Shown one piece after another: positions 5,061-55,345 of a stretch of 64,000 nt of DNA. Source of the DNA: Hyphococcus sp. Its GTDB lineage: Bacteria; Pseudomonadota; Alphaproteobacteria; Caulobacterales; Parvularculaceae. Location of the stretch: positions 744,001-808,000 of the forward strand of contig JANQRY010000003.1 in NCBI GenBank assembly GCA_028284345.1, written 5' to 3'. Each line of letters opens with the position of its first letter. Positions within the stretch are counted from its first letter, which is position 1. The position numbers and the translations under genes are program-made. Under the pieces are notes generated by a model. It saw nothing but the letters and a program-made list of their open reading frames with translations, was not told the origin of the DNA and searched no databases.

Positions 5061-6263
5061 TCAGACCATTTTCGAGCGAATTTCGACACCCTCCGCCAGC
5101 ATGCGGTGGACGGGACATTTCCCTGCAATTTCATGGAGTCGCGCCGTTTGCGCCTCGTCGAGATCGCCGCTGACTTCGAGCGATTTTTCGAGCACCCGGG
5201 AGAGGTGCGAGTCCTCGTCTTGCGCCCGGGTCACGGTGACCTTGAGAGCGTCGATGGGCCAGTTCTTGCGCCGGGCGTACATGCGCACGGTCATCGCCGA
5301 ACAGGCGGCGAGCGCGGCTTCCACAAGGCGCGTCGGATTGGGGCCGAGACCGTCGCCGCCGTCTTCCTTGTCCGCGTCGATGACGATGGGGTGGTCGCCG
5401 GCGGACGCGGAAACGGCGAATTTTTTGTCCGCGAGAATTTCCGCAACGCCGCCGTCAACGGCGTCGACGCGCCGGGTCTCAACCGGATCGGCGGGCGCGG
5501 CGGGAAGATAGCGCGCGCTCCACGCAGCGATGACGCTCGCCGCATAGCGGGCGTCTTCGGCATTGGAGAGCAGGTGATCGGCGGTGTCGAGGCTTACGAA
5601 ACTTTTCGGATGTTTTGCGGCGACGAATATTTTCGTCGCATTGTCGACGCCCACGGTTTCGTCCCGCGGCGCGTGCAGGATCAAGAGCGGTTTTTTCAAA
5701 GACGCTGCGCACTCGGTCACGGTCTGGTTTTTGAGATCGTCCAAGAACTGCGACTTAATTTTGAACGGCCGGCCGGCGAGATTTACGACCGCCGCGCCCT
5801 TGTCGCGAATGTCGTTTTCGCTTTCTTTCAATTGCAGCGCCACGTGATCGGCTTCCGCCGGCGCGCCGATGACAGCGACGCCCCTTGTTTCCGGAATTTG
5901 CGTGGCGGCGACAATGGCCGCGGCGCCGCCGAGGGAATGACCGATGACGATGGACGGGGCTTCAAACTCCCGGCGCAGAAAATCCGCCGCCGCCACAAGG
6001 TCGTCCACATTGGACGTAAAGTTGGTGTTGGCGAAATCGCCGTCGGAGCCGCCGAGACCGGTGAAGTCAAACCGCAACACCGCAAAGCCCCGCGCGCGCA
6101 GGGCCCGGGCGACTTCCCGCGCCGCCTTGATGTCCTTTGAACAGGTAAAGCAATGGGCGAACAGCGCATAGGCCCGCGGGGGACCGGCCGGAAGCTCCAG
6201 TGCGGCGGCCAGTTTCGCCCCCGTCGATCCGTCAAACTCAGTCTTGCGTGTTTCGCCCGTCAT
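5061..6263 (-). CDS. Fused alpha/beta hydrolase - OsmC-family peroxidase-like protein
   Basis: A 400-residue two-domain protein. Residues about 1-255 are an alpha/beta hydrolase with nucleophile elbow GHSLGG (Ser about 110), an acid-loop candidate HAPRDETVGVDNA and a terminal His in TADHLLSN. Residues about 265-400 are an OsmC/Ohr-like domain with both characteristic cysteines, in AACSAMTVRMYARR and KCPVHRML. OsmC proteins reduce organic hydroperoxides through such a Cys pair. This fusion is a known bacterial domain architecture whose substrate is unknown; an ester or thioester hydrolysed by one domain and a peroxide reduced by the other is possible. It is transcribed alone, about 120 bases from degP. 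Confidence 0.9.
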   Translation of the reverse strand: MTGETRKTEFDGSTGAKLAAALELPAGPPRAYALFAHCFTCSKDIKAAREVARALRARGFAVLRFDFTGLGGSDGDFANTNFTSNVDDLVAAADFLRREFEAPSIVIGHSLGGAAAIVAATQIPETRGVAVIGAPAEADHVALQLKESENDIRDKGAAVVNLAGRPFKIKSQFLDDLKNQTVTECAASLKKPLLILHAPRDETVGVDNATKIFVAAKHPKSFVSLDTADHLLSNAEDARYAASVIAAWSARYLPAAPADPVETRRVDAVDGGVAEILADKKFAVSASAGDHPIVIDADKEDGGDGLGPNPTRLVEAALAACSAMTVRMYARRKNWPIDALKVTVTRAQDEDSHLSRVLEKSLEVSGDLDEAQTARLHEIAGKCPVHRMLAEGVEIRSKMV

Positions 6264-6322
6264 GCCCTGCTCCTTCGGCCGCTGCGCCGATGATGTCCGG
6301 CGTTGTCGAGCGGGATATAGGC

Positions 6323-7750
6323 TTAAACGGCCACCGCCGCAGCCTTGGCCCGATCACGAATGAGGCCCGCCTCCTCACGATCGAGCAAGGGCTCGGCGAT
6401 GTCGAGGGTCTGATCGAGCATGCGCTCGGCGGCCTTGCGCTCGGCGCCTTCGGCGGCGCGAATTTCCGTCACGAGATCATTGGCGAAGGTCGACATCTTT
6501 TCGCGGGCCTCGCGGGCGATGTCCGCGGCAAGGTCGGCGGCGGCGCCGAGCCGGTCGGCGAAGCTTGTCGCAGAGGCGATCAGCATCGCCCCCTCCTTCG
6601 CCTGCTCGACGGCGCGGGGCGACGGCGGCGCGGCATAGTCCGGCCGTTGCGCCATCAGGAAACTCGACCCGCCCGACTGGCGCGCCGGCGTCGCCTCGCG
6701 CAGGGCGCCAAGCGCCAGTTCGCAAAAACGCTCAAAGGCTTCCGCCGCAACCTCGCGGCAGGCTTCGATGCGATTGACCGATACATTGTCGCCGGCCTTT
6801 TCCGCCTGGCGCGCAAGACCGTCGGCGTAATCGGCGAACCAGCCGACGCGCAAGCGCCCGGCCTGAGCGTCAAACTTTTCCGCCGCCAAGCCGTCCCGTT
6901 CGAGCCCCCGCGCCATGGCTTCAAGGTCTTCAAACAACGCTTCAGGCAGAGCCGCAATTTCATCGCGCGCCGCCTCAAGGCGTTCATCGGCGCTGCGCGC
7001 AAGATGATAGTAAAAGGCGAGCGCGCGCCAGGGCTTTTCAAGCCGGCCTTTTACCGCCAGCAACAGGAAAGCCGCGAGCTTCGGCGACTGATCGTGTGCG
7101 GATAAAAAGGCGGACCGCAAAGCATAGAGGTCGTCTTCGGACGACGCCCCGGCGCCGGCGGGAAGGATCCGCTGCATCTGTTTGAAATGTTCAACGCCCG
7201 CGAGCAGCCGGCGCAGTTCCTGAAGATCGGCGAAGGCCGCCTCGCCGCCGAGCATGTCGCCGATATGCGCCCGCGCGCCGCTTTCCACCATGGCGGCGTC
7301 GAGAACGCGGCCAAGCCCCGCTTCGGCCGCAATGAAAAGCGCCCGCTCAAGGTCGTCGGTGTCCCGTCCGGCCCGGATCGCCTCGTCGAGACTGGCGGCG
7401 GCGAAGGCCGCTTCGGAGAGCGCCGTTTCGCGCATCATCAGTCGCCATATGGGCGCGAGCGAGGCGCGCGGAATAACGCCGGGGCGCTTGCGGCCCTGGC
7501 GCTCGCCGACGAAAAAATCCTCAAACGGGGTAAAGAACAGCCGTCTCGCGTCGGCGCGCCGGGACGGCAGCACGGCGCCGCGGTCAAGCAGGCGCTTACG
7601 CAGGCCGTTCAGAATCTCATTATGCGGAAGATGATCGCCGCCGCTGGCGCGATCGGCCTCAATCGCCGCGAACAGCTTTACGGCCGTCGCAGTCGGCAAG
7701 CCCCCGAGAAAGGCGGTCAGTTGTTCGCGTTTGCGCTCGCTCAGCGCCAT
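6323..7750 (-). CDS. Conserved alpha-helical protein of unknown function
   Basis: A 475-residue protein that I do not recognise as a named family. It is almost wholly helical, rich in Ala, Glu and Arg, with no signal peptide, membrane span or catalytic motif seen, so it is probably cytosolic. The N-terminus (MALSERKREQLTAFLGG) is taken at 7750; the frame is open 27 codons further up but those codons are Arg/His-rich and look non-coding. It lies between a DnaJ-like cochaperone and an OsmC fusion, all on one strand. The long stretches of amphipathic helix suggest a scaffold or protein-interaction role (inference). Confidence 0.7.
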   Translation of the reverse strand: MALSERKREQLTAFLGGLPTATAVKLFAAIEADRASGGDHLPHNEILNGLRKRLLDRGAVLPSRRADARRLFFTPFEDFFVGERQGRKRPGVIPRASLAPIWRLMMRETALSEAAFAAASLDEAIRAGRDTDDLERALFIAAEAGLGRVLDAAMVESGARAHIGDMLGGEAAFADLQELRRLLAGVEHFKQMQRILPAGAGASSEDDLYALRSAFLSAHDQSPKLAAFLLLAVKGRLEKPWRALAFYYHLARSADERLEAARDEIAALPEALFEDLEAMARGLERDGLAAEKFDAQAGRLRVGWFADYADGLARQAEKAGDNVSVNRIEACREVAAEAFERFCELALGALREATPARQSGGSSFLMAQRPDYAAPPSPRAVEQAKEGAMLIASATSFADRLGAAADLAADIAREAREKMSTFANDLVTEIRAAEGAERKAAERMLDQTLDIAEPLLDREEAGLIRDRAKAAAVAV

Positions 7751-43206: not shown

Positions 43207-43620
43207 ATGTCTGACTTTGAAACCATTCGCGCCGATTTTGCGTTTCTCGACGACTGGGACGAGCGGTACAAATATCTGATCGATCTCGGCCGCAGCCTCG
43301 CGCCCTATCCCGACGCGCTTCGGGACGAGGCGCACAAGGTCAAGGGGTGCGCCAGCCAGGTCTGGCTGCATGCGGACCGCGAAAACGGCGCCCTCGCCTT
43401 TCAGGGGGATTCCGACGCCCATATCGTCAAGGGGCTCGTGGCGCTGCTGATCGCGCTTTATTCCGGCAAATCGCCGGCGGACATCGCCGGGCTTGACCCG
43501 GCCGCGGCGCTCAAGCCCTTCGATCTTGAAAACCATCTGACGCCGCAGCGCTCAAACGGGCTGCATGCGATGGTTAAGCGCATCCGCGCCATGGCCGCCG
43601 AAGACGCGAGCCAGCGTTAA
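43207..43620 (+). CDS. sufE: SufE-family cysteine desulfurase activator
   Basis: A 137-residue SufE protein that accepts sulfur from SufS for Fe-S cluster assembly. The acceptor Cys lies in [39 protein letters not shown], the classic SufE block. The N-terminus [28 protein letters not shown] is typical. The frame is open 12 codons upstream, but ATG at 43207 matches the family. Its stop overlaps the convergent DnaA-like gene by four bases. Confidence 0.94.
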
Positions 43621-44018
43621 CGCCCGCGGGAAAAAATATCCGACGCAGCGAGGGTTTTTCTTTCCGCCGCCTCGCCGGAGCGGAATTCGTTGATCCGTTC
43701 GCGCAGCCGTTTTTCCATGAATTCAAGCTGCAGATCGAATAGCGGACTGTCCCGGCGGTCTTCGATATTGGTGCAGGAATGACTGATCGTGGTCCGGTTT
43801 TTCTTGAAGCAGGTTGCGACCTCGTTGAGCGTCAACTGGCCGACCACATGGGCGAGATACATGGCGATCTGCCGGGAGAGCGCCAGATGCGTGTCCCCCC
43901 GCGGTGCGTCGAGCAAGGCCGCGTGGGACAGCCCGTTGGCTTCGCAAACCACCTCCTTGGCGAGCCGCGCAATGACCCGGCATGCCCGACTGGAAAACGC
44001 GTCCTCTTTGAACGACAT
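43617..44018 (-). CDS. Stand-alone DnaA domain IV-like DNA-binding protein
   Basis: A 133-residue protein resembling only the C-terminal DNA-binding domain of DnaA. It shows [66 protein letters not shown], where NRTTISHSC parallels the DnaA signature DHTTVxHA. No AAA+ ATPase domain is present. It could bind DnaA boxes and either modulate initiation or act as a regulator. A GANTC site (GATTC) lies upstream near 44091, a CcrM target in this class (inference). It is convergent with sufE. Confidence 0.85.
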
Positions 44019-44166: not shown

Positions 44167-45894
44167 TTACGCAAAGAACGCGACGGCGAGAACGAACCCA
44201 AGCAAAATCGCGGTCCACAAGGCCATGAAGCCGATGGGCCAGGATTTCGCCATCTGTCCTTCGGGTCCGTGCACGGCGTAGATGCGCGCCATTATGGCGT
44301 GCATGCGGGCGGTAAAAATCGCCCATAAGGCGTTAAATGTTGCGCCGGACGCACCAACGACCCAACCGCCAAACGCCCGTCCCGGCACGCGATAGAACCA
44401 GTCCGTGTCGAGATTCGTCGACGGCACCTCGGGCGGATACCAGCGGATGAGAATGAGCACGGCGAAAGCGAGCACCGCCCATAGAAGAAGCTGCAACTGT
44501 TCGACCACGTGATAGGCCGAATAGGGGTGATAATCGGCGATCGCATCTTGGTCCGGCAGGAGCGCGTAAAGCGGGTCCGGATAAACGCCGATGCCGATAC
44601 AGAGTGCGCCGGCCAGCCCCATGGCGATCAGCATTTGCGGCGGCGCCTCTTGCGGACGCTTGCCTGAGTCATGGGCGAAGAAGGTGAAATAGGGAATCTT
44701 GATGCCGGCGTGTTCAAGAACGCCCGCGGAGGCGAACAGCAGCACGAGCCAGATCCAGAACAGATGGCTGTACCCGGCGGCGTCGATGATCAGCCCCTTG
44801 GTGACGAAGCCGAGGGTGCCTGGAAAGGCGGAGATTGACATCGCGCCGATAATGCAGAGCCCCATGGTGATCGGCATGGTCCGGTAAAGCCCGCCGAGTT
44901 CGGTGGCCTTTGAGGTCCCTGTTCGGAACATCGCCGCGCCCAGCGCCATGAACAACAGCCCTTCGAAGATGATGTTGCCGAAGGCGTAGCCCGCCGCGCC
45001 GTTGATCGTGCCGAGGCCGATGGCGCAGACCATGAAGCCCACCTGGTTGTTGATGGAGTAAGTGAGAACTTTTCGGAGGTCGTTTTCGATCAGCGCGAAG
45101 AAGATCGGGAAGATCGTCATTACCGCGCCGACGTAAATCAGCTCGCTCTGGCCCGGAAAGCCGCGGGCGAGGGAATAAACCGCGAGCTTCGTCGTGAAGA
45201 TCGAAAGGATGATGGCGCCGGTGATGGTCGATTTGGGGTAAGCGTCCTGCACCCAGTTATGCAGGAGCGGAAACGCCGCCTTGATGCCGAAGGCCAGCAA
45301 CATAATGAGGGCGGAGAATTTGACCGCACCGTCGGCGTCGCGCAGGCCGATAAAGTCAAAGGCGAGCGATCCGGTTTCGCGATAGAGGAGGACAACGCCG
45401 CCGAGGAGCAACACGCCCGAGAGCACCTGAATGGAAAGGTAACGCATGCCGGCGAGATAGGTGACGCGGGTTCCCGGCGCCCAGACGAGGAAGACCGAGG
45501 TAATGGCGGCGATTTCCCACCAGATGAAGAGCGTGATGAGGTCGCCGGCGAGCACGCCGCCCAGCGCCGCGGCCGGATAAGCGAGCGTTGCGAAGTTCTG
45601 CGCCCGGTCCCGCTGGCCCCAGGCGTAGATGATGTTGAGGGCCGCGGCGATGTGAAAGACGACGGCGAAAATGCGCGACAGGGGATCGATGCGTAATGTC
45701 GTCAGCGTTTCGCCGAAGACGGCAATGCGGCCATATTCGCCGACCCCCAACGTATAGAGTTTGATGGCGGAAAGCGCCGTCGCGATGAGGAGAATAAGGC
45801 TCGCCAGATGGCGCGGCGCCGCCACCGTGATCAACGCGCCGACGGTGAGGATCACCGCCGGGTTCTGAACAAAGACGTCAACGAGCGCCGTCAT
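44167..45894 (-). CDS. Mrp-type antiporter subunit D homologue, third copy in operon
   Basis: A 575-residue proton-channel protein of the MrpD/NuoM/NuoN family, about 14 membrane segments. The family Glu lies in TLFIWWEIAAITSVF at about 127, and a Lys-bearing helix is in ITFGIKAAFPLLHNW-like sequence. It is longer than copies 1 and 2 because of a C-terminal extension after residue 490 with extra helices and a polar loop. It is the last gene of the Mrp operon and lies 2 bases after a small membrane protein gene. Confidence 0.9.
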   Translation of the reverse strand: MTALVDVFVQNPAVILTVGALITVAAPRHLASLILLIATALSAIKLYTLGVGEYGRIAVFGETLTTLRIDPLSRIFAVVFHIAAALNIIYAWGQRDRAQNFATLAYPAAALGGVLAGDLITLFIWWEIAAITSVFLVWAPGTRVTYLAGMRYLSIQVLSGVLLLGGVVLLYRETGSLAFDFIGLRDADGAVKFSALIMLLAFGIKAAFPLLHNWVQDAYPKSTITGAIILSIFTTKLAVYSLARGFPGQSELIYVGAVMTIFPIFFALIENDLRKVLTYSINNQVGFMVCAIGLGTINGAAGYAFGNIIFEGLLFMALGAAMFRTGTSKATELGGLYRTMPITMGLCIIGAMSISAFPGTLGFVTKGLIIDAAGYSHLFWIWLVLLFASAGVLEHAGIKIPYFTFFAHDSGKRPQEAPPQMLIAMGLAGALCIGIGVYPDPLYALLPDQDAIADYHPYSAYHVVEQLQLLLWAVLAFAVLILIRWYPPEVPSTNLDTDWFYRVPGRAFGGWVVGASGATFNALWAIFTARMHAIMARIYAVHGPEGQMAKSWPIGFMALWTAILLGFVLAVAFFA

Positions 45895-45896
45895 CC

Positions 45897-46181
45897 CTAT
45901 TCGCGCTCCTCATAATAATCTTCCTTGCGGCCGACGAGCTTGCGCAGGTGCTGGCCCGCAAGGACGATGAACATGAAGGCGGCGAAGCCCCATAGCGCGA
46001 AGAAGACGGGAAACCCTTCCGCGGCGAAATGCGGCTTTTCCTTCTGGAAAGCGGGCACGAACCCGGCGAGCGCTGAGAGCACCGCCGCAACGATCAGGAC
46101 GCCGAGAAACACGTTGCGGAAGCCTTTGGTATCGGCCCAGCCAGGTTTTTCGTCAGGGTTCTTGTGGTGGTCGTCAGACAT
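45897..46181 (-). CDS. Small two-span membrane protein in the Mrp operon
   Basis: A 94-residue protein with a polar start (SDDHHKNPDEKPGWADTKG), two hydrophobic segments (NVFLGVLIVAAVLSALAGFV and VFFALWGFAAFMFIVLAGQHL) and a charged tail (RKLVGRKEDYYEERE). It is not one of the standard Mrp subunits and I recognise no family. Tight spacing to the third MrpD copy suggests they work together, perhaps as an accessory spacer subunit. Confidence 0.8.
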   Translation of the reverse strand: MSDDHHKNPDEKPGWADTKGFRNVFLGVLIVAAVLSALAGFVPAFQKEKPHFAAEGFPVFFALWGFAAFMFIVLAGQHLRKLVGRKEDYYEERE

Positions 46182-46193
46182 AAGCGCCGCCTT

Positions 46194-46320
46194 TCACCTC
46201 CCCTTGGAAAGGGGAGGTCGAAAATTTCGCAGAAATTTTCGGGTGGGGATCAATATGCAAATGAACTATTGCAAGGTCGGGCTGATCCCCCCCTAGCCCC
46301 CCCTTTTCAAGGGGGGGAAC
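46194..46320. repeat. Palindromic repeat family A, copy 3
   Basis: CACCTCCCCTTGGAAAGGGGAGG followed by TCGAAAATTTCGCAGAAATTTTCGGGTGGGG is answered by GATCCCCCCCTAGCCCCCCC and TTCAAGGGGGGG. The layout matches copies at 15353 and 18299. It sits inside the Mrp operon between D copy 2 and the small protein gene. Confidence 0.8.
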
Positions 46321-46352
46321 GATCGACGCAGGAATGAGCGGATAAGTGTCCA

Positions 46353-47864
46353 TCACCCCGCCTCCGCAATCAACGGCGCCAGATAGTTGAACAGCGGATC
46401 GGCGCAGAAGAAGAGAATGAACGCTCCCGCCGCGGTGAGCATGGGCGGCAGGACGCAGAGGAGCGGGGCTTCTTTCAAATTCCCCCACTCAATGCCCTTG
46501 CCTCTCGCCCCTTGCGCTTTCGCGCCGTTGATGGCGGGCTCCATGTAAAACGCGCGCACGGGGATCGACAGCAAATAGATGACGTTGAGGATCGACGAAA
46601 TCATCAGCACCGCGATGATCGCGATCTCACCGGCGTCGGCGGCGCCGAGCATCAAAAAGAATTTGGGCCAACTCCCGCCCATGGGCGGCAGGCCGATGAT
46701 CGACATGGCGCCGAGGAAAAACGCGCCGAAAGTCCATGGCATGACCCGGCCCAAACCATTGAGTTCGGAAACCAGCGTTTTGTGATGGGCGACGTAAACG
46801 GCGCCGGCGCACATGAAGAGGGTCATCTTGCCCAACGCATGGGCGGCGATCTGCGTCGCCCCGCCCATAACGCCCATGGATGTCGCGAGCATGGCGCCCA
46901 AGGTCACGTAAGATAGCTGCGACACGGTCGAATAGGCGAGCCGGGCTTTTAAGTTGTCCTGGTTCATGGCGATGAGGGACGCCAGCAGGATCGAGCCCGC
47001 GGCGATCCACATGAAAGGAACGCCGGCGCCGGTGTCGCGCAACAGGTCGACGCCGAAGACATAGACCGCGACCTTGAGGATCGAAAAGACGCCGGCCTTC
47101 ACCACCGCGACCGCGTGGAGGAACGCGGAAACCGGCGTCGGCGCCACCATGGCGTTGGGGAGCCAGGGATGAACCGGCATCAGCGCCGCCTTGCCGATGC
47201 CGAAGGCGTAGAGCCCGAGGAGCACGCCGACCAAAGGCCCGGCCGCATCGACGTGTTGCGACAGGATTCCGCCGGCGGCGAACTCCGTTGTCTCGGCGAT
47301 GGCGTACGTCCAGACGATCGCCGGCAGGAGCAGCCCGATCGACGTCGCCATCAACACGCCGAGATAGATGCGCCCGCCGTTCCGCGCCTTGTCGTCGCCG
47401 TAATGGGTGACGAGCGGAAAGGTCGAGAGGGTCAGGACTTCATAAAAGATAAACAGCGTGAACAGGTTCGACGCATAGGCGACGCCCATGGCCGCGGAAA
47501 TCGCCACGGCGAAGGACATGTAAAACCGCGTCTGGTGTTGCTCGTCGTGCCCGCGCATATAGCCGATGGAATAGAGCGAATTGATAAACCACAAGCCGCT
47601 GGCGATGACGCCGAACATGGCGCCCAGAGGCTCGGCGCGGAAGGCGAGCGGCAGGCCGGCGATCACTTCAAAGACGAGGATCTGCGGCGTCTCGCCATTG
47701 CCGACGGCGAGGAAGACCGTGATGCTCAGTATCATGAGCACTGTCGCAGTGATCAGCGTCACGCCCTCGCGCAGGTTCGGCGATTTATCGGAGAGCCAGA
47801 TGCCGAGGCAGCCGAGCAGCGGCGCGCCGACGGCGGCGGCGAGAGCGATAGAGGGAGAGATCAT
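46353..47864 (-). CDS. Mrp-type antiporter subunit D homologue, second copy
   Basis: A 503-residue MrpD/NuoM-like membrane protein. The conserved Glu lies in FTLFIFYEVLTLSTFPLV (about 142), and a Lys-bearing helix with the broken-helix Pro in AFLHAVAVVKAGVFSILKV follows. The start at 47864 (MISPSIALAAAV) overlaps the previous D stop by four bases; the frame is open 37 codons upstream but reads as Arg-rich noise. A repeat follows the gene. Confidence 0.92.
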   Translation of the reverse strand: MISPSIALAAAVGAPLLGCLGIWLSDKSPNLREGVTLITATVLMILSITVFLAVGNGETPQILVFEVIAGLPLAFRAEPLGAMFGVIASGLWFINSLYSIGYMRGHDEQHQTRFYMSFAVAISAAMGVAYASNLFTLFIFYEVLTLSTFPLVTHYGDDKARNGGRIYLGVLMATSIGLLLPAIVWTYAIAETTEFAAGGILSQHVDAAGPLVGVLLGLYAFGIGKAALMPVHPWLPNAMVAPTPVSAFLHAVAVVKAGVFSILKVAVYVFGVDLLRDTGAGVPFMWIAAGSILLASLIAMNQDNLKARLAYSTVSQLSYVTLGAMLATSMGVMGGATQIAAHALGKMTLFMCAGAVYVAHHKTLVSELNGLGRVMPWTFGAFFLGAMSIIGLPPMGGSWPKFFLMLGAADAGEIAIIAVLMISSILNVIYLLSIPVRAFYMEPAINGAKAQGARGKGIEWGNLKEAPLLCVLPPMLTAAGAFILFFCADPLFNYLAPLIAEAG

Positions 47865-49369
47865 GGCGCGCCCGCTCCCGCCATCACCATCAGCGCCTCG
47901 GCCGCCCGGTTTGCAATGCCGCCGGTGAGTTCGGTGTTGAGGCCGAAATAGACGTTCATCGCGACCAGGAACCACATGGGGATGAGCATCGACAGCGGCG
48001 CGTCCTTGGCCGGAATGGCGTAAGGCCCCTCCTCCGCCGGTTCGCGGAGCAGCATCAGCTCAACGATGCGGCCGATATAAAGAACGGCGATGAGCGACGA
48101 GGCGACGATGAGGAAACCCGCATACCAGAAGCCGGCCGCAAACGAGGCCTGCAAGAGATACCATTTGGAAACGAAGCCCACGGTGAGCGGCACGCCGACC
48201 AGCGACAGGCCGGAAATAATGAACGCCCAGGTGGTGTAGGGCATGCGTTTGGAAAGCCCGGCGAAGGCCTGGATCGAATGGGATCCGGCGCGCAGGACGA
48301 CGCAGGCGACGGCCATGAACAAGGCGCCCTTCATCAGCGCGTGGTTGAACATGTGAACGAGGCTCGCCGACAGACCCTCGACCGTGCCGAAGGAAATGCC
48401 GAGGAGCATGTAGCCGATCTGGCCGACCGAGGAATAGGCGAGCATGCGTTTGATGTCGTCCTGAAAGACGGCGACGAGCGAGGCGATGAACATGCCGGCG
48501 AGACCGAGCGGCAGGAACACCCAGGTGAAGGCGGCGCCCAGAAACTCGAACTGAAACCCGAACACCGTGTCGATGAAGCGGATCAGCACATAGACCGCGA
48601 CCTTCGTCGCCGTCGCCGCAAGAAACGCCGAAACCGCCGACGGCGCGTAGGTGTAGGCGCCGGGCAGCCACAGATGCATGGGGAACATGGCGAGCTTCAA
48701 CCCGATGCCGACGACGATGAAGGCGAAGCCCGCATCGACGACGCGGTTTGACTGTCCCAACAGCCGGTCGTGGAGGTCCGCCATGTTGAGGGTGCCCGTC
48801 GCCTGATAGAGCAGCCCGACGCCGATGACGAAGAAGGTCGCGCCGATCGTGCCCATGATGAGGTAGTTGAAGGCGGCGGTGAGCGCGCGCCGGTCGCGCC
48901 GCGCGCCCATGGCGATCAGCGCGTAGGCGGAAAGCGAGGAGATTTCGAGAAAGACGAAGACGTTGAAGGCGTCGCCGGTGATGGTGACGCCGAGAAGCCC
49001 CGTCAGGCAGATCAGGAGCGCGCAGTAAAAGAACGACGACTGGCGTTCGTCGATTTCAAGTCGCACCGAAGCGTAGGCGAAGGGAAAGACCACCGCCGCA
49101 ATGCCGGAGACGAGAAACAGCACCAGCGCATTGGCGAGATCGACGCGATATTCAATGCCAAGCGGCGGCGCCCAGTCGCCCAGTTGATAGGAGATGACGC
49201 CGGCGTCGTTCACCGCGGCCAGCAGGAAGGCGCAGGCGGCGAAGGTCAGCCAACTGACGAAGGTGGCCCAGGCATGGGGCGCCCGGCCGTTGGGCATCAG
49301 CATGGCGAACGGCGCCAGGACGAGCGGGATGATGACCGGCAGAACCGGCAATTGCGCCGCAAAGTTCAT
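47861..49369 (-). CDS. mrpD: Mrp antiporter subunit D (MnhD/MrpD)
   Basis: A 502-residue MrpD, the proton-translocating core. It has about 14 membrane segments with the functional Glu at about 142 (FVFLEISSLSAYALIAMG) and a Lys/His-rich central helix region (GLKLAMFPMHLWLPGAYTYAPSAVSAFLAATATKVAVYV). The start overlaps the mrpC stop by four bases. It is the first of three D-type genes. Confidence 0.95.
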   Translation of the reverse strand: MNFAAQLPVLPVIIPLVLAPFAMLMPNGRAPHAWATFVSWLTFAACAFLLAAVNDAGVISYQLGDWAPPLGIEYRVDLANALVLFLVSGIAAVVFPFAYASVRLEIDERQSSFFYCALLICLTGLLGVTITGDAFNVFVFLEISSLSAYALIAMGARRDRRALTAAFNYLIMGTIGATFFVIGVGLLYQATGTLNMADLHDRLLGQSNRVVDAGFAFIVVGIGLKLAMFPMHLWLPGAYTYAPSAVSAFLAATATKVAVYVLIRFIDTVFGFQFEFLGAAFTWVFLPLGLAGMFIASLVAVFQDDIKRMLAYSSVGQIGYMLLGISFGTVEGLSASLVHMFNHALMKGALFMAVACVVLRAGSHSIQAFAGLSKRMPYTTWAFIISGLSLVGVPLTVGFVSKWYLLQASFAAGFWYAGFLIVASSLIAVLYIGRIVELMLLREPAEEGPYAIPAKDAPLSMLIPMWFLVAMNVYFGLNTELTGGIANRAAEALMVMAGAGAP

Positions 49370-50112
49370 CCGCGCGTCCCCGTCGCTTCGGCCGCGGCGC
49401 CGAACTCGGCCACATTGTCCATGGCTTCCAGTTCGTCTTCCTCGATCGTGCCGTAGGCTTCGCGGATGCGCACGGCGAGGGCGAGCCCCACCGCCGTGCC
49501 GGCGACGCCGACGACAATGGCCGTAAGGATCAGCACATGAGGCAGCGGGTTGGTGTAGATGACTTCCGAATGATAGGCCGCCGCCTCGACGGCGCCGTGG
49601 GCGGCGTCGGCGGCGATGTCGAAGCCTTGCGACGCGGATTTGCCGGCGTCGATCAGCTGTTCATTGGCGATCTTGGCCGCGTCGTCGGGCGCGGTATGGA
49701 GCGACGCGGCGTCATGACCGCCTTCCCCGGCGATGACGCCTTCATCGAGTGTCAGGTCGTTCGCCGCGGCTTTGAGGTCGTTGGCGCCGAGATCGTTTTC
49801 GATCTTTGCATGGAGCGAGGCGCCGGCGTCTGCGCCGTGGTCCGCCGCCGCGCCGTGCGGCTCGTCGCCATGCCCATCCCCGTGACCGTCCCCATGGTAA
49901 AGCTCGTCGCCGATATAGATCGGCGCCGTGCCGCCGGCGACCTTGCCGATGGTGATGTAGAAAATGAACACGCTGGTCTGGAAGATGTTGAGCCCGACGA
50001 TTTTCTTGACGAGATTGCCGCGGGCGAAGACCGTGTAGAGGCCGATCATCATCAGGACAATGACGATCCAGTAGTTGTAACGCGCAATGACGAATTCAGT
50101 CCAGCTTTCCAC
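49366..50112 (-). CDS. mrpC: Mrp antiporter subunit C with a large acidic/His-rich insert
   Basis: A 248-residue MrpC/NuoK-like protein; normal MrpC is about 115-125 residues. TM1 (about 13-30) and TM2 (about 38-58, KKIVGLNIFQTSVFIFYITIGK) are canonical, as is TM3 (about 190-215, LPHVLILTAIVVGVAGTAVGLALAV). Between them residues about 67-186 form an insert with HGDGHGDGHGDEPHGAAADHG and long Ala/Asp/His stretches. By NuoK topology it would face the periplasm. The start is GTG at 50112, 8 bases after the mrpB stop; upstream in-frame codons are Arg-rich and not accepted. Confidence 0.9.
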   Translation of the reverse strand: MESWTEFVIARYNYWIVIVLMMIGLYTVFARGNLVKKIVGLNIFQTSVFIFYITIGKVAGGTAPIYIGDELYHGDGHGDGHGDEPHGAAADHGADAGASLHAKIENDLGANDLKAAANDLTLDEGVIAGEGGHDAASLHTAPDDAAKIANEQLIDAGKSASQGFDIAADAAHGAVEAAAYHSEVIYTNPLPHVLILTAIVVGVAGTAVGLALAVRIREAYGTIEEDELEAMDNVAEFGAAAEATGTRG

Positions 50113-50120
50113 GGGGCGCC

Positions 50121-50561
50121 CTACCAGTCTTCCTGATCGATGTCGGGCTCGCGGCCGGTGAATTGGTAAAAGATGGTCAGCATGGTCGACGCGACGGCGA
50201 CGCCGACGCCCCACTCGACCAGCAGAATGCCGTAATGCTGACCGGCGTGATGGGTTGATTCCGGATCGATCTGATCGTAGCCGAGGAAATTGCCGCCAAG
50301 CAGCATGGTTGCGACCCCGGTGCCGGCGTAGAACAGAACGCCAATCACCATCGCAACGATAAGCGCGCGCGGCGGCAGCACTTTCTTCGTTTCCTCAAGG
50401 CCGAAACAGAAAGCGTGCAGGATGAACGCGACGGCGAAAATGACGCCGGCCTGAAAGCCGCCGCCCGGCCCGTAGTCCCCGTGAAACTGCACATAAAGCG
50501 CAAACAGGATGATCGGCGCGAAGAAGATCTTCGTCGTTACTTTGAGGATGAGGCGATCCAT
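50121..50561 (-). CDS. mrpB: Mrp antiporter subunit B (MnhB domain)
   Basis: A 146-residue four-span protein of the MnhB family. Typical blocks are FAPIILFALYVQFHGDYGPGGGFQAGVIFAVAFILHAFCFGLEE and the C-terminal HHAGQHYGILLVEWGVGVAVASTMLTIFYQF. The GPGGGFQAG motif is diagnostic. ATG at 50561 adjoins the stop of the previous gene. Confidence 0.95.
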   Translation of the reverse strand: MDRLILKVTTKIFFAPIILFALYVQFHGDYGPGGGFQAGVIFAVAFILHAFCFGLEETKKVLPPRALIVAMVIGVLFYAGTGVATMLLGGNFLGYDQIDPESTHHAGQHYGILLVEWGVGVAVASTMLTIFYQFTGREPDIDQEDW

Positions 50562-51161
50562 CTAGGGGCTCTCCTCATCGACGTCGGAGACTTCGCGCCC
50601 GCCCCGGGCTGAACCAACGCCAAGCAAGAGGAGAACGGCGAGCCCCGCGGTGAACACCACCAGCACCTCGCCCAGCGTATCGAAGCCGCGATAGCTCGCC
50701 AGAACGGCGGTGACGATGTTGGGCACGGCGATGTCGCTCGGCGTCCGCTCCACATAAGCCTGGCCCACATAGGCGTTCGCCGGGGCGTTGGGATCGCCGA
50801 AACCCGGCATGTCGATGGTCGCGTAGATGAGCGCCGCGCCGGTGGCGAAGACCGCGATGCGCGCCACCGGCACGCGGCGGGACTCAAACGGCTTTTCGCG
50901 CCGGGCCGTCAACAGCATCCCCGCCAGCATCAGGACGGTGGAGACGCCCGCCCCGACCGCAGCTTCGGTGAACGCCACATCGACCGCATCGAGGGAAACG
51001 AAAAACGCCGCCGACAGCAGCGAATAGATCCCCGACAGCATGACGACGGCGAATAAGTGCCGTGAACGGAGCATGGCGATGGCGACGACCAGCAGCATGG
51101 TCAACAGCGACAGATCGACCAAGAGGATCGGGGAGACTTCGTATTCGTACCCGTTCGTCAC
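50562..51161 (-). CDS. MbhD/MbhE-like fused antiporter subunit (DUF4040; MrpA C-terminal region)
   Basis: A 199-residue protein equal to the C-terminal part of MrpA. The DUF4040/MbhD half (about 15-95) has SGIYSLLSAAFFVSLDAVDVAFTEAAVGAGVSTVLMLAGM, the MbhD signature. The MbhE half (about 100-190) has NIVTAVLASYRGFDTLGEVLVVFTAGLAVLLLLG. In archaeal Mbh these are two genes; here they are one. Full-length MrpA with its antiporter half is absent. It overlaps the mrpG stop by four bases. Confidence 0.9.
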   Translation of the reverse strand: MTNGYEYEVSPILLVDLSLLTMLLVVAIAMLRSRHLFAVVMLSGIYSLLSAAFFVSLDAVDVAFTEAAVGAGVSTVLMLAGMLLTARREKPFESRRVPVARIAVFATGAALIYATIDMPGFGDPNAPANAYVGQAYVERTPSDIAVPNIVTAVLASYRGFDTLGEVLVVFTAGLAVLLLLGVGSARGGREVSDVDEESP

Positions 51162-51529
51162 TTGCCGTCCCCGTCATAGCGAAGATCGGGCCCTTCCATG
51201 GGACGGAAACCGGTCATCCAAGCGGCATGCGCGACGGCGTGGGTCGAGACCGGCGAGGTGAACCCCAGAAAGATCGCGATGAAGACGAGCTTGGAGAAGA
51301 TCAACCAGCTATTCTCATACTCCGGACTGAAAGCCTGCAGCATCATGGCGAAGATCATGAGTTCGGCGCCCGCCGTGTCGGTGACGCCAACGCCATGGAG
51401 GCGGGTGTAGAAATCGGGAAAGCGCACGATGCCGAGGGCGCCGATAACAACGGCCGCGCCGCCGACGAGGAACAGCGCCCAGGACAGGGTGTCGCGCGCC
51501 AGATCGAGCATGACCGGATCAATGCTCAT
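51158..51529 (-). CDS. mrpG: Mrp antiporter subunit G
   Basis: A 123-residue MnhG/MrpG protein with three hydrophobic segments, GGAAVVIGALGIVRFPDFYTRLHGVGVTDTAGAELMIFAMM being diagnostic (RFPDFYTRLHG). It overlaps mrpF and the MbhDE-like gene by four bases each. Confidence 0.95.
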   Translation of the reverse strand: MSIDPVMLDLARDTLSWALFLVGGAAVVIGALGIVRFPDFYTRLHGVGVTDTAGAELMIFAMMLQAFSPEYENSWLIFSKLVFIAIFLGFTSPVSTHAVAHAAWMTGFRPMEGPDLRYDGDGK

Positions 51530-51831
51530 GAGGCCTCGCTTCCCGAAGGCTTCACGGGCCGCGGTTCGGCCGGCGCGCCTTTCGGCTGGCGGTAGGAGAA
51601 GAACCGCAGGATGGCGATGGTCGCGGCGAAATTGATCAGCGCGTAAAGCAGCGCGATGTCGAGAAAGTCCGGCCGGCCGGTGAGAAAGCCCATGATGCCG
51701 ATCAGCAAGACGGTTTTCGTGCCGAAGGAATTGCCGGCGAGCACGCGGTCGTAAAGGGACGGTCCGGAAAAAGCGCGCACGAGGGCCAGCACCATGGCGA
51801 TGATGACGGCGACGGTGGCGGTTGCAAACAT
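51526..51831 (-). CDS. mrpF: Mrp antiporter subunit F
   Basis: A 101-residue MnhF protein, three spans. It contains LALVRAFSGPSLYDRVLAGNSFGTKTVLLIG, the family block GPSLYDRVLA, and ends ALINFAATIAILRFFSYRQPKGAPAEPRPVKP. ATG at 51831 is chosen because the longer open frame upstream lies within mrpE. It is 4 bases after the mrpE stop. Confidence 0.93.
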   Translation of the reverse strand: MFATATVAVIIAMVLALVRAFSGPSLYDRVLAGNSFGTKTVLLIGIMGFLTGRPDFLDIALLYALINFAATIAILRFFSYRQPKGAPAEPRPVKPSGSEAS

Positions 51832-51835
51832 CGCC

Positions 51836-52315
51836 TCAGCCCCCTCGCTCGGCTCTGGCGACGCGCTCGCCCATGTCGCGAATGCTCTCCACATCAGCGA
51901 GGTCTTCGGTAAGACCGTGGACGAGGATTTCATCTTCCCTGAGATCCACCGTCACCGTGCCCGGCGTCATCGTGATGGAGTTGGCGAAGGTGACTTTGCC
52001 GACGGCGGTGCGCGGCGGGTTCGGGACGAGAAACAGTTTCGGGGACAGTTTCGGCTCCACCGCAAGCGCCTCGCGGGCGACGATGAGATTGGCCTTGCCG
52101 ATTTCTGTAATCAGCCAGATCCAGTACCCGAAGATCCCGGGGATAACGCCGCCGGGAACGCCCTCGGCGTCCAGCACGCGGGCGCGATGGGCGAGCCACG
52201 TAGCAAGCGCCACCGAGCCGCCGCCGAACGCGAGCAGCAGCGGTTTGTCAAAATAGCCTGAAAGCAACAGCCAGAGCGCCGACAGCGCCGCGACCATAAC
52301 GAGAATACGCCCCAT
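51836..52315 (-). CDS. mrpE: Mrp antiporter subunit E
   Basis: A 159-residue MnhE protein with two or three N-terminal spans (LVMVAALSALWLLLSG, FGGGSVALATWLAHRARVL). The conserved cytosolic region is KANLIVAREALAVEPKLSPKLFLVPNPPRTAVGKVTFANSITMTPGTVTVDL. It is the first gene of the operon; the promoter should lie in 52316-52574. Confidence 0.93.
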   Translation of the reverse strand: MGRILVMVAALSALWLLLSGYFDKPLLLAFGGGSVALATWLAHRARVLDAEGVPGGVIPGIFGYWIWLITEIGKANLIVAREALAVEPKLSPKLFLVPNPPRTAVGKVTFANSITMTPGTVTVDLREDEILVHGLTEDLADVESIRDMGERVARAERGG

Positions 52316-54121: not shown

Positions 54122-55345
54122 TTAAGCCGCGTGCGGATCAATGGAAAAATCTTCGTCGAGACCGAGCAGCCGCGAGATATGGGCGATGCGCGGATTGGCG
54201 TCCCAGTCCCAGTAGCGCAGGATCGCCCGGGAAAAGTCGCGGGCGAGACCGTCGAACACGCTGAGGAGATATTCCGCCTGTTCCGGTCCGATAGGGCCTT
54301 CCTCGCTCTCAATATCGAACAGGGCGAAAAACTGATCGCGCGGCACCGACAGGCTCTTGCACATGACGGCGAAGGGCTCGCCCGTCGGGTCGCGTAAGAT
54401 TCGTGCGGCGAGATCGCGGCTGACGCCGGCGATCATGCCGATGGCGTGAATGATTTCCTGGCTCGGATAGCGCCGCGCCGCGGTCAGGGTGCGCAGCACT
54501 ACGTCCAGCGACACCGGTTCGCCATTGGCGCCGCGCGGCCGGTGACGGCGTTCGGCGAGGATAAGGATATCGCGCACAAACGGATCGGGATCGTGATTGG
54601 CGCGGAAGATCTTGGGATAAAGATCTTCGAGCGCGTCCTGGATCACGCGGCGGTCGAGCGCAAAGCGCGACAGAATGCGCCGGCGCTGTTCGCTTTCGAC
54701 CCACCAGAACATCATGAAGCCATGGGCCGGCTCCAATTCGCGCCGGCGAAGGAGCGCGACCTGCAACTCCGGATGGGTCGCCGACAAGGCGACGCATTTG
54801 TTGACGGCGTTCGGCGACAAAAGACATTCGTCCCGCCGCAGCACCGCCTTGTAGACCTCGATTTCGTCAAACTGGATGAGCGCGTCGGCGATTGCGGTCG
54901 ACAGATCGACGCGCTGGGCGATCATCAGGCGGTGCGCCGCTTCGCCTTCGCGCGCCGCCTCGATCAGCAAGGCCTCCGGAATAAGCTCGGCGCCGCGGAG
55001 AATTTTTTCCGCCACCGGCGGCGCGTCCAATACCAGCATGCGCGTCAGCGCCGGCGGGCTTTCCGGAACCCGCGCCACCCGCGTCGCCACTTCAACGCGC
55101 AGTTCGACCTCCACCTTGTCGACGATCTGCAGGAGAATGTCGGCGACCAGCGAGCGTTCATTGGCGGAGATGCGCCCCGCCGGCAGGACGACGATATCGG
55201 CGAGCTTGCGCACCATTTGCGCGCGCGGCGTCACGCCGATGCGCGTGATCGGCGTCAGCATGGTTTCCGCGTCCGGCTCCGGCTCGTTCGACCCGGCGCC
55301 CAACTCTCCGGCCCCTATGTCTCCGGCGATGTCAAAATCAGCCAT
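54122..55345 (-). CDS. DUF2336 protein (second of two in the window)
   Basis: A 407-residue DUF2336 protein with helical repeats like the one at 33897-35057: MVRKLADIVVLPAGRISANERSLVADILLQIVDKVEVELRVEVATRVARV and LQVALLRRRELEPAHGFMMFWWVESEQRRRILSRFALDRRVIQDALED. It also has an acidic N-terminal tail of about 35 residues. No catalytic motif, signal or span is visible. It lies upstream of the ParA pair in the same direction with about 200 bases between. Confidence 0.88.
   Translation of the reverse strand: MADFDIAGDIGAGELGAGSNEPEPDAETMLTPITRIGVTPRAQMVRKLADIVVLPAGRISANERSLVADILLQIVDKVEVELRVEVATRVARVPESPPALTRMLVLDAPPVAEKILRGAELIPEALLIEAAREGEAAHRLMIAQRVDLSTAIADALIQFDEIEVYKAVLRRDECLLSPNAVNKCVALSATHPELQVALLRRRELEPAHGFMMFWWVESEQRRRILSRFALDRRVIQDALEDLYPKIFRANHDPDPFVRDILILAERRHRPRGANGEPVSLDVVLRTLTAARRYPSQEIIHAIGMIAGVSRDLAARILRDPTGEPFAVMCKSLSVPRDQFFALFDIESEEGPIGPEQAEYLLSVFDGLARDFSRAILRYWDWDANPRIAHISRLLGLDEDFSIDPHAA

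Follow-up and report, generated by a model that had tools for sequence, protein, structure and literature searches.

A lineage-specific acidic insert, predicted to be periplasmic and disordered, in the MrpC subunit of a Mbh-type antiporter operon of Parvularculaceae

The window, a 64,000-nucleotide stretch of the genome of a Hyphococcus sp. (Parvularculaceae, a family of marine bacteria), carries an antiporter operon in which one small membrane subunit, MrpC, is interrupted by a long insert between its second and third transmembrane helices; the question is whether this insert is an inherited part of the protein, and what it could do at that place. The initial annotation had described the gene as an mrpC in which a His/Asp-rich insert, about 120 residues long, separates TM2 from TM3 and by NuoK topology would face the periplasm near the cation mouth, and these points stand. 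The protein matches PF00420 (Oxidored_q2) with 76.7 bits at a cut-off of 26.1, in two stretches on either side of the insert, and NCBIfam NF005624 ("cation:proton antiporter subunit C") with 117.5 bits at a cut-off of 95. Its best PDB match is 6u8y_G (E 6e-16), and the PDB sequence ranking places subunit G of MBS and MBH first, followed by the MrpC of Bacillus and Anoxybacillus. A fold search with the MrpC model gave nothing below E 0.001, the top hit being the same MBS homologue of MrpC, 6u8y_G (E 0.69, probability 0.97). The reading frame (VESWTEF...GTRG) is open without stops, its GTG start matches the position of the ATG start in close relatives by alignment, and the gene sits between mnhB and mnhD of the antiporter operon in 14 of 14 loci compared. 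Three transmembrane helices (residues 12–30, 34–56 and 189–220) are predicted by AlphaFold2. The coordinates are collected in Table 1.

Table 1. Positions in the window of the antiporter genes and of the segments of MrpC
Feature	Position	Strand	Basis or remark
mnhE/mrpE	51836..52315	minus	PF01899
mnhF/mrpF	51526..51831	minus	PF04066; internal ATG start inferred
mnhG/mrpG	51158..51529	minus	PF03334
MbhD+MbhE fusion, equivalent of MrpA C-terminal part	50562..51161	minus	PF13244, PF20501
mnhB/mrpB	50121..50561	minus	PF04039, NF009162
mrpC (MnhC/MbhG-like, NuoK family)	49366..50112	minus	248 aa, GTG start at 50112
TM1 (aa 12-30), cytoplasmic loop K36/K37, TM2 (aa 34-56)	49945..50079	minus	AlphaFold2, pLDDT ~88-94 mostly
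Insert, predicted periplasmic, aa 66-185, 120 residues	49558..49917	minus	charge ~-20, predicted disordered
HGDGHGDGHGDEPHG, aa 73-87, motif of the initial annotation	49852..49896	minus	conserved in part
Conserved unit 1: SLHAKIENDLGANDLK, aa 99-114	49771..49818	minus	K103, N106, K114 invariant in genus
Conserved unit 2: SLHTAPDDAAKIANEQL, aa 137-153	49654..49704	minus	L138, H139, K147, N150 invariant in genus
NPLPH segment + TM3 (aa 188-220)	49453..49551	minus	start = B. pseudofirmus MrpC 66-82
mrpD-like subunit 1 (MbhH position)	47861..49369	minus	PF00361; synteny
mrpD-like subunit 2	46353..47861	minus	PF00361; synteny
94-aa small membrane protein	45897..46181	minus	synteny across phyla
mrpD-like subunit 3	44167..45894	minus	NF009310, 628.7 vs cut-off 564 bits

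The side of the membrane is indicated by the TM1–TM2 loop, whose K36 corresponds in the alignment to Arg27 of B. pseudofirmus MrpC, a residue described as lying near a cytosolic opening (PMC9568556); the TM2–TM3 loop, and with it the insert, would therefore lie on the periplasmic side. Residues 66–82 of the same B. pseudofirmus protein lie around the tunnel proposed for Na+ exit (PMC9568556) and align with the Hyphococcus MrpC from N188 on, so that the insert stops two to three residues ahead of the proposed Na+-exit segment, just before NPLPH, whose N188, P189 and P191 are invariant across 58 MrpC sequences. Both the side and the exit-site placement are by homology, from aligned sequences rather than a solved complex. 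Steiner and Sazanov likewise route their Na+ path to the periplasm by way of TM3 of MrpC, and in their description the small subunits present a positive periplasmic face, which suits ion release (PMC7419157). T46 and F49 in TM2 occupy the canonical Mrp His37 and His40 sites, T46 being invariant in the 58 sequences.

The insert is flanked by GGTAPI and YTNPLPH and contains 10 His and 24 Asp or Glu, with four Lys or Arg and no Cys. Its computed net charge is about −20 at pH 8, −12 at pH 6 and −8 at pH 5, and from these values His buffering counts only below about pH 7.5; the pH sensing suggested by the initial annotation is thus unlikely above pH 7.5 if His is its only source, since the computed charge hardly shifts in that range. 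In the AlphaFold2 prediction (58 aligned sequences), the transmembrane helices are confident and the insert has a pLDDT of about 42–68, with short helices at residues 112–119 and 151–161, which fall at the conserved units, and at 168–180. By this prediction the insert would be intrinsically disordered, a call taken from one AlphaFold2 monomer model with the other subunits left out. TRF gave one weak 26-bp array only and no notable tandem array, and tandem-repeat slippage was rejected on this ground as the sole origin. A search of the same genome for a second source found no convincing copy of the segment.

The check in related bacteria, set beforehand, relied on a query lacking the insert. The insert is present in each of the 60 Parvularculaceae genomes that gave a match, and none matched without interruption: the matches fall into two separated pieces, with one partial piece in three genomes (G001, G011 and G640), located at contig ends in G001 and G011; two incomplete Parvularculaceae genomes gave no match. 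The nearest named matches to the window are from uncultured Parvularculaceae, Marinicaulis and Parvularcula oceani, and the search of the window's own genus covered another 27 genomes. The complete loops of Parvularculaceae are 89–234 residues long (median 137), with a net charge of −8 to −34 (median −19). In two other families of the order the loop is 13–127 residues long, is acidic too and often contains HGxGH, and some genomes of family f5 gave a single-piece match with a short loop. Outside the order, where the TM2–TM3 loop has mostly 7–16 residues, 99 alphaproteobacterial genomes gave a strong match in one contiguous piece (class-wide survey of 385 genomes), and a thinner phylum survey was consistent with the insert-free MrpC of the class-wide survey. 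The insert is confirmed as real, inherited and specific to the Parvularculaceae lineage.

A His-rich MrpC loop of about 50 residues was also observed at the same site in Rhodopirellula europaea (L101, ~5965–6561). This loop belongs to a planctomycete, is shorter and has no SLHxxP units; it is probably independent of the Parvularculaceae insert, and suggests that the insertion site is tolerated or repeatedly used.

Around the insert and within it, conservation is unevenly distributed. In the genus alignment (25 sequences), the mean identity to the window sequence is 46% in the loop versus 87% in the transmembrane part. Pairwise dN/dS of the loop is approximately 0.1–0.25 in the least saturated pairs and mostly below 0.08 in the transmembrane part, the loop values being rough because dS is high in many pairs. 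The conserved loop positions are clustered: L100, H101, K103, I104 and N106; N111, D112, L113 and K114; and S137, L138, H139, P142, K147, I148, N150, L153 and K158. K103, N106, K114, L138, H139, K147 and N150 are 100% conserved in the 25 genus sequences, and the four loop Lys have a mean conservation of 97%. Among the His residues, H139 is conserved in 100%, H86 in 92%, H101 in 84%, H73 in 76% and H77 in 64% of the genus; the remaining ones reach 12–28% (H81 24% and H92 20%, for example), and the HGDGHGDGH run includes several variable His. The most conserved part of the insert is therefore not the eye-catching His run but a recurring unit that the initial annotation had overlooked, in which SLHxxP or SLHxKIxN is followed, within a short segment, by N[DE]xL or NDLK.

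The window MrpC has two such units, and relatives have as many as four. Counted over 26 distinct loops of the genus, LHxxP is present 38 times against a shuffled mean of 0.9, and KIxN 59 times against 2.2. In 29 loops from other genera of Parvularculaceae, LHxxP occurs 22 times against 1.1 after shuffling and N[DES]L 39 times against 5.7, and KIxN has five matches in two of the 29 loops. LHxxP and N[DES]L are thus family-wide and the full unit is not, since KIxN hardly occurs outside the genus; LHxxP has no occurrence in 24 loops of related families. The shuffle tests ignore the kinship of the sequences, although the excess is very large and extends across several genera. In the genome, no other exact copy of LHxKIxN and no other protein with a convincing copy of the units was found.

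The operon has the order mnhE-F-G-(MbhD/E)-B-C-D1-D2-(94 aa)-D3, which extends the mbhA-H order by a small protein and two MrpD-like genes. These ten genes were observed in the same order in 14 loci from Alphaproteobacteria, Gammaproteobacteria, Gemmatimonadota, Planctomycetes and Nitrospirota, with additional MrpD-like genes in one of the Gemmatimonadota loci, and across these 14 loci only MrpC among the operon subunits has a large insert. As a Mbh-type Mrp operon (44167–52315, minus) with three MrpD-like subunits and without MrpA, it lies outside the group 1 and 2 layouts defined in PMC5703873 and may fall under the irregular group 3 of that scheme. The 94-aa protein has no Pfam or NCBIfam match; it shows the pattern FYxxxGFxxxxxLVLxxxxLRKxxxRxEDYYD, is encoded between mrpD2 and mrpD3 in every phylum compared, and is probably a tenth, unnamed member of the Mrp-like operon. 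In MnhB, the loop THHAGQHYG keeps GQH in nearly all compared sequences, and Parvularculaceae have extra His. In addition, a 407-aa protein (54122–55345, minus) with a partial SpbR family match below the cut-off precedes the operon, as it also does in some relatives, and a 133-aa protein (43617–44018, minus) resembling the C-terminal part of DnaA lies downstream, likewise in some relatives.

Compared with known systems, the MrpC/MnhC of Mrp antiporters (B. pseudofirmus 7qru_C and A. flavithermus 6z16_C) share the three-TM NuoK-like fold, the TM3 start (DPLPQ/NPLPH) and the operon place, but they have no insert and carry His37/His40 in TM2 where the Hyphococcus protein has Thr46/Phe49. The canonical group 1/2 Mrp has one full-length MrpA, whereas the Hyphococcus operon has the MbhD/E fusion and three MrpD-like genes. 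The closest solved sequences are MbsG of the archaeal MBS (6u8y_G) and MbhG of MBH (6cfw_G, E 4.5e-9), and the gene order E-F-G-D/E-B-C-D agrees with mbhA-H; however, both archaeal subunits lack the insert, and the MBS and MBH complexes have a redox module that is absent from the Hyphococcus ten-gene cluster. NuoK of complex I belongs to the same Pfam family, and the other PF00420 match above the cut-off in the genome, presumably NuoK, is in one piece.

The conservation pattern of the insert favours docking. The most likely reading, to which we give about an even chance, is that the insert forms a polyanionic arm in the periplasm, disordered and carrying docking motifs next to the cation exit, the docking and any effect of it on transport being guesses. 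An ancestor of Parvularculaceae would have grown this arm into the TM2–TM3 loop of the MrpC of a Mbh-type multi-subunit cation/H+ antiporter. The SLHxxP/SLHxKIxN elements, together with the mini-helix at N[DE]xL that comes after them and may be N-capped, would most likely act as the docking motifs, with either the antiporter's own periplasmic face or a periplasmic partner as the target, and the polyanionic His/Asp spacer would hold cations near the exit mouth. The low predicted order and the short conserved motifs fit such an arm. A more tentative and, on balance, doubtful step is that cation exit is regulated through the SLHxxP/KIxN units, either by recruitment of a dedicated periplasmic protein or by their binding to the exit gate of the antiporter itself. 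A family-specific extra operon gene as the partner was rejected: no partner was found in the operon, because the identical set of ten genes occurs in other phyla.

Alternatively, a partnerless acidic arm dotted with His could act by charge alone, concentrating Na+/H+ at the mouth or buffering the local pH. The computed charges at pH 8 and pH 6 agree with this, and so does the acidic composition kept in Parvularculaceae and related families although the sequence diverges. Since the small-subunit periplasmic face is described as positive (PMC7419157), an arm of charge −20 would alter the local field, and the cation gathering proposed by the initial annotation is electrostatically conceivable. 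However, pure charge leaves the invariant L, K, N and SLH positions and the few, near-fully conserved Lys unexplained, and His contributes almost no charge change above pH 7.5; this alternative is considered unlikely.

Still less probable is a transition-metal loop that senses or buffers Zn, Cu or Ni. The ZnT/CDF and ZIP zinc transporters are likewise cation transporters with a long hydrophilic loop that contains His, and their loops are known for (HX)n tracts. His makes up 7% of the Parvularculaceae loops on average, and HxxxH and HxxxxH are approximately twofold enriched over shuffled sequences in 55 family loops (68 and 67, respectively, against 35 expected). Nevertheless, HxH, the spacing of (HX)n tracts, is depleted about twelvefold (3 against 36 expected) and HxxH occurs 4 times against 36 in the same loops, related families are likewise short of both, two Cys occur in the 55 loops, and several His are poorly conserved. 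The His/Asp metal-binding segment of the initial annotation is thus not upheld by these patterns; weak or multivalent metal binding by the insert is possible.

Equally improbable is a largely neutral low-complexity expansion, tolerated as a periplasmic loop outside any tight interface. The variable length of 89–234 residues, the many Ala/Gly/Asp/His stretches and the indels are in line with it, but the loop codons are under purifying selection, which argues against neutral filler as well as against assembly error; moreover, the motifs are far above the shuffled level and the insert is kept in every matching Parvularculaceae genome. An assembly error, a frameshift or a wrong gene start is refuted by the open frame and by the fact that the insert recurs across dozens of independent genomes, some of them assembled as a single contig.

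In the open-access literature searched, with most subscription papers outside its scope, no description of a long or His-rich MrpC loop was found, and the Parvularculaceae insert is on this basis an accessory arm on a known protein family. If the SLHxxP/KIxN units do regulate cation exit, the complex would be an antiporter of the Mrp type whose regulatory arm is built in and periplasmic, and no description of such a feature was found in the same literature. Cation release by Mrp complexes on the periplasmic side is disputed in structural papers, and a lineage-wide appendage at the exit mouth with invariant residues would offer a way into the exit step and into the question whether such antiporters can be controlled from outside.
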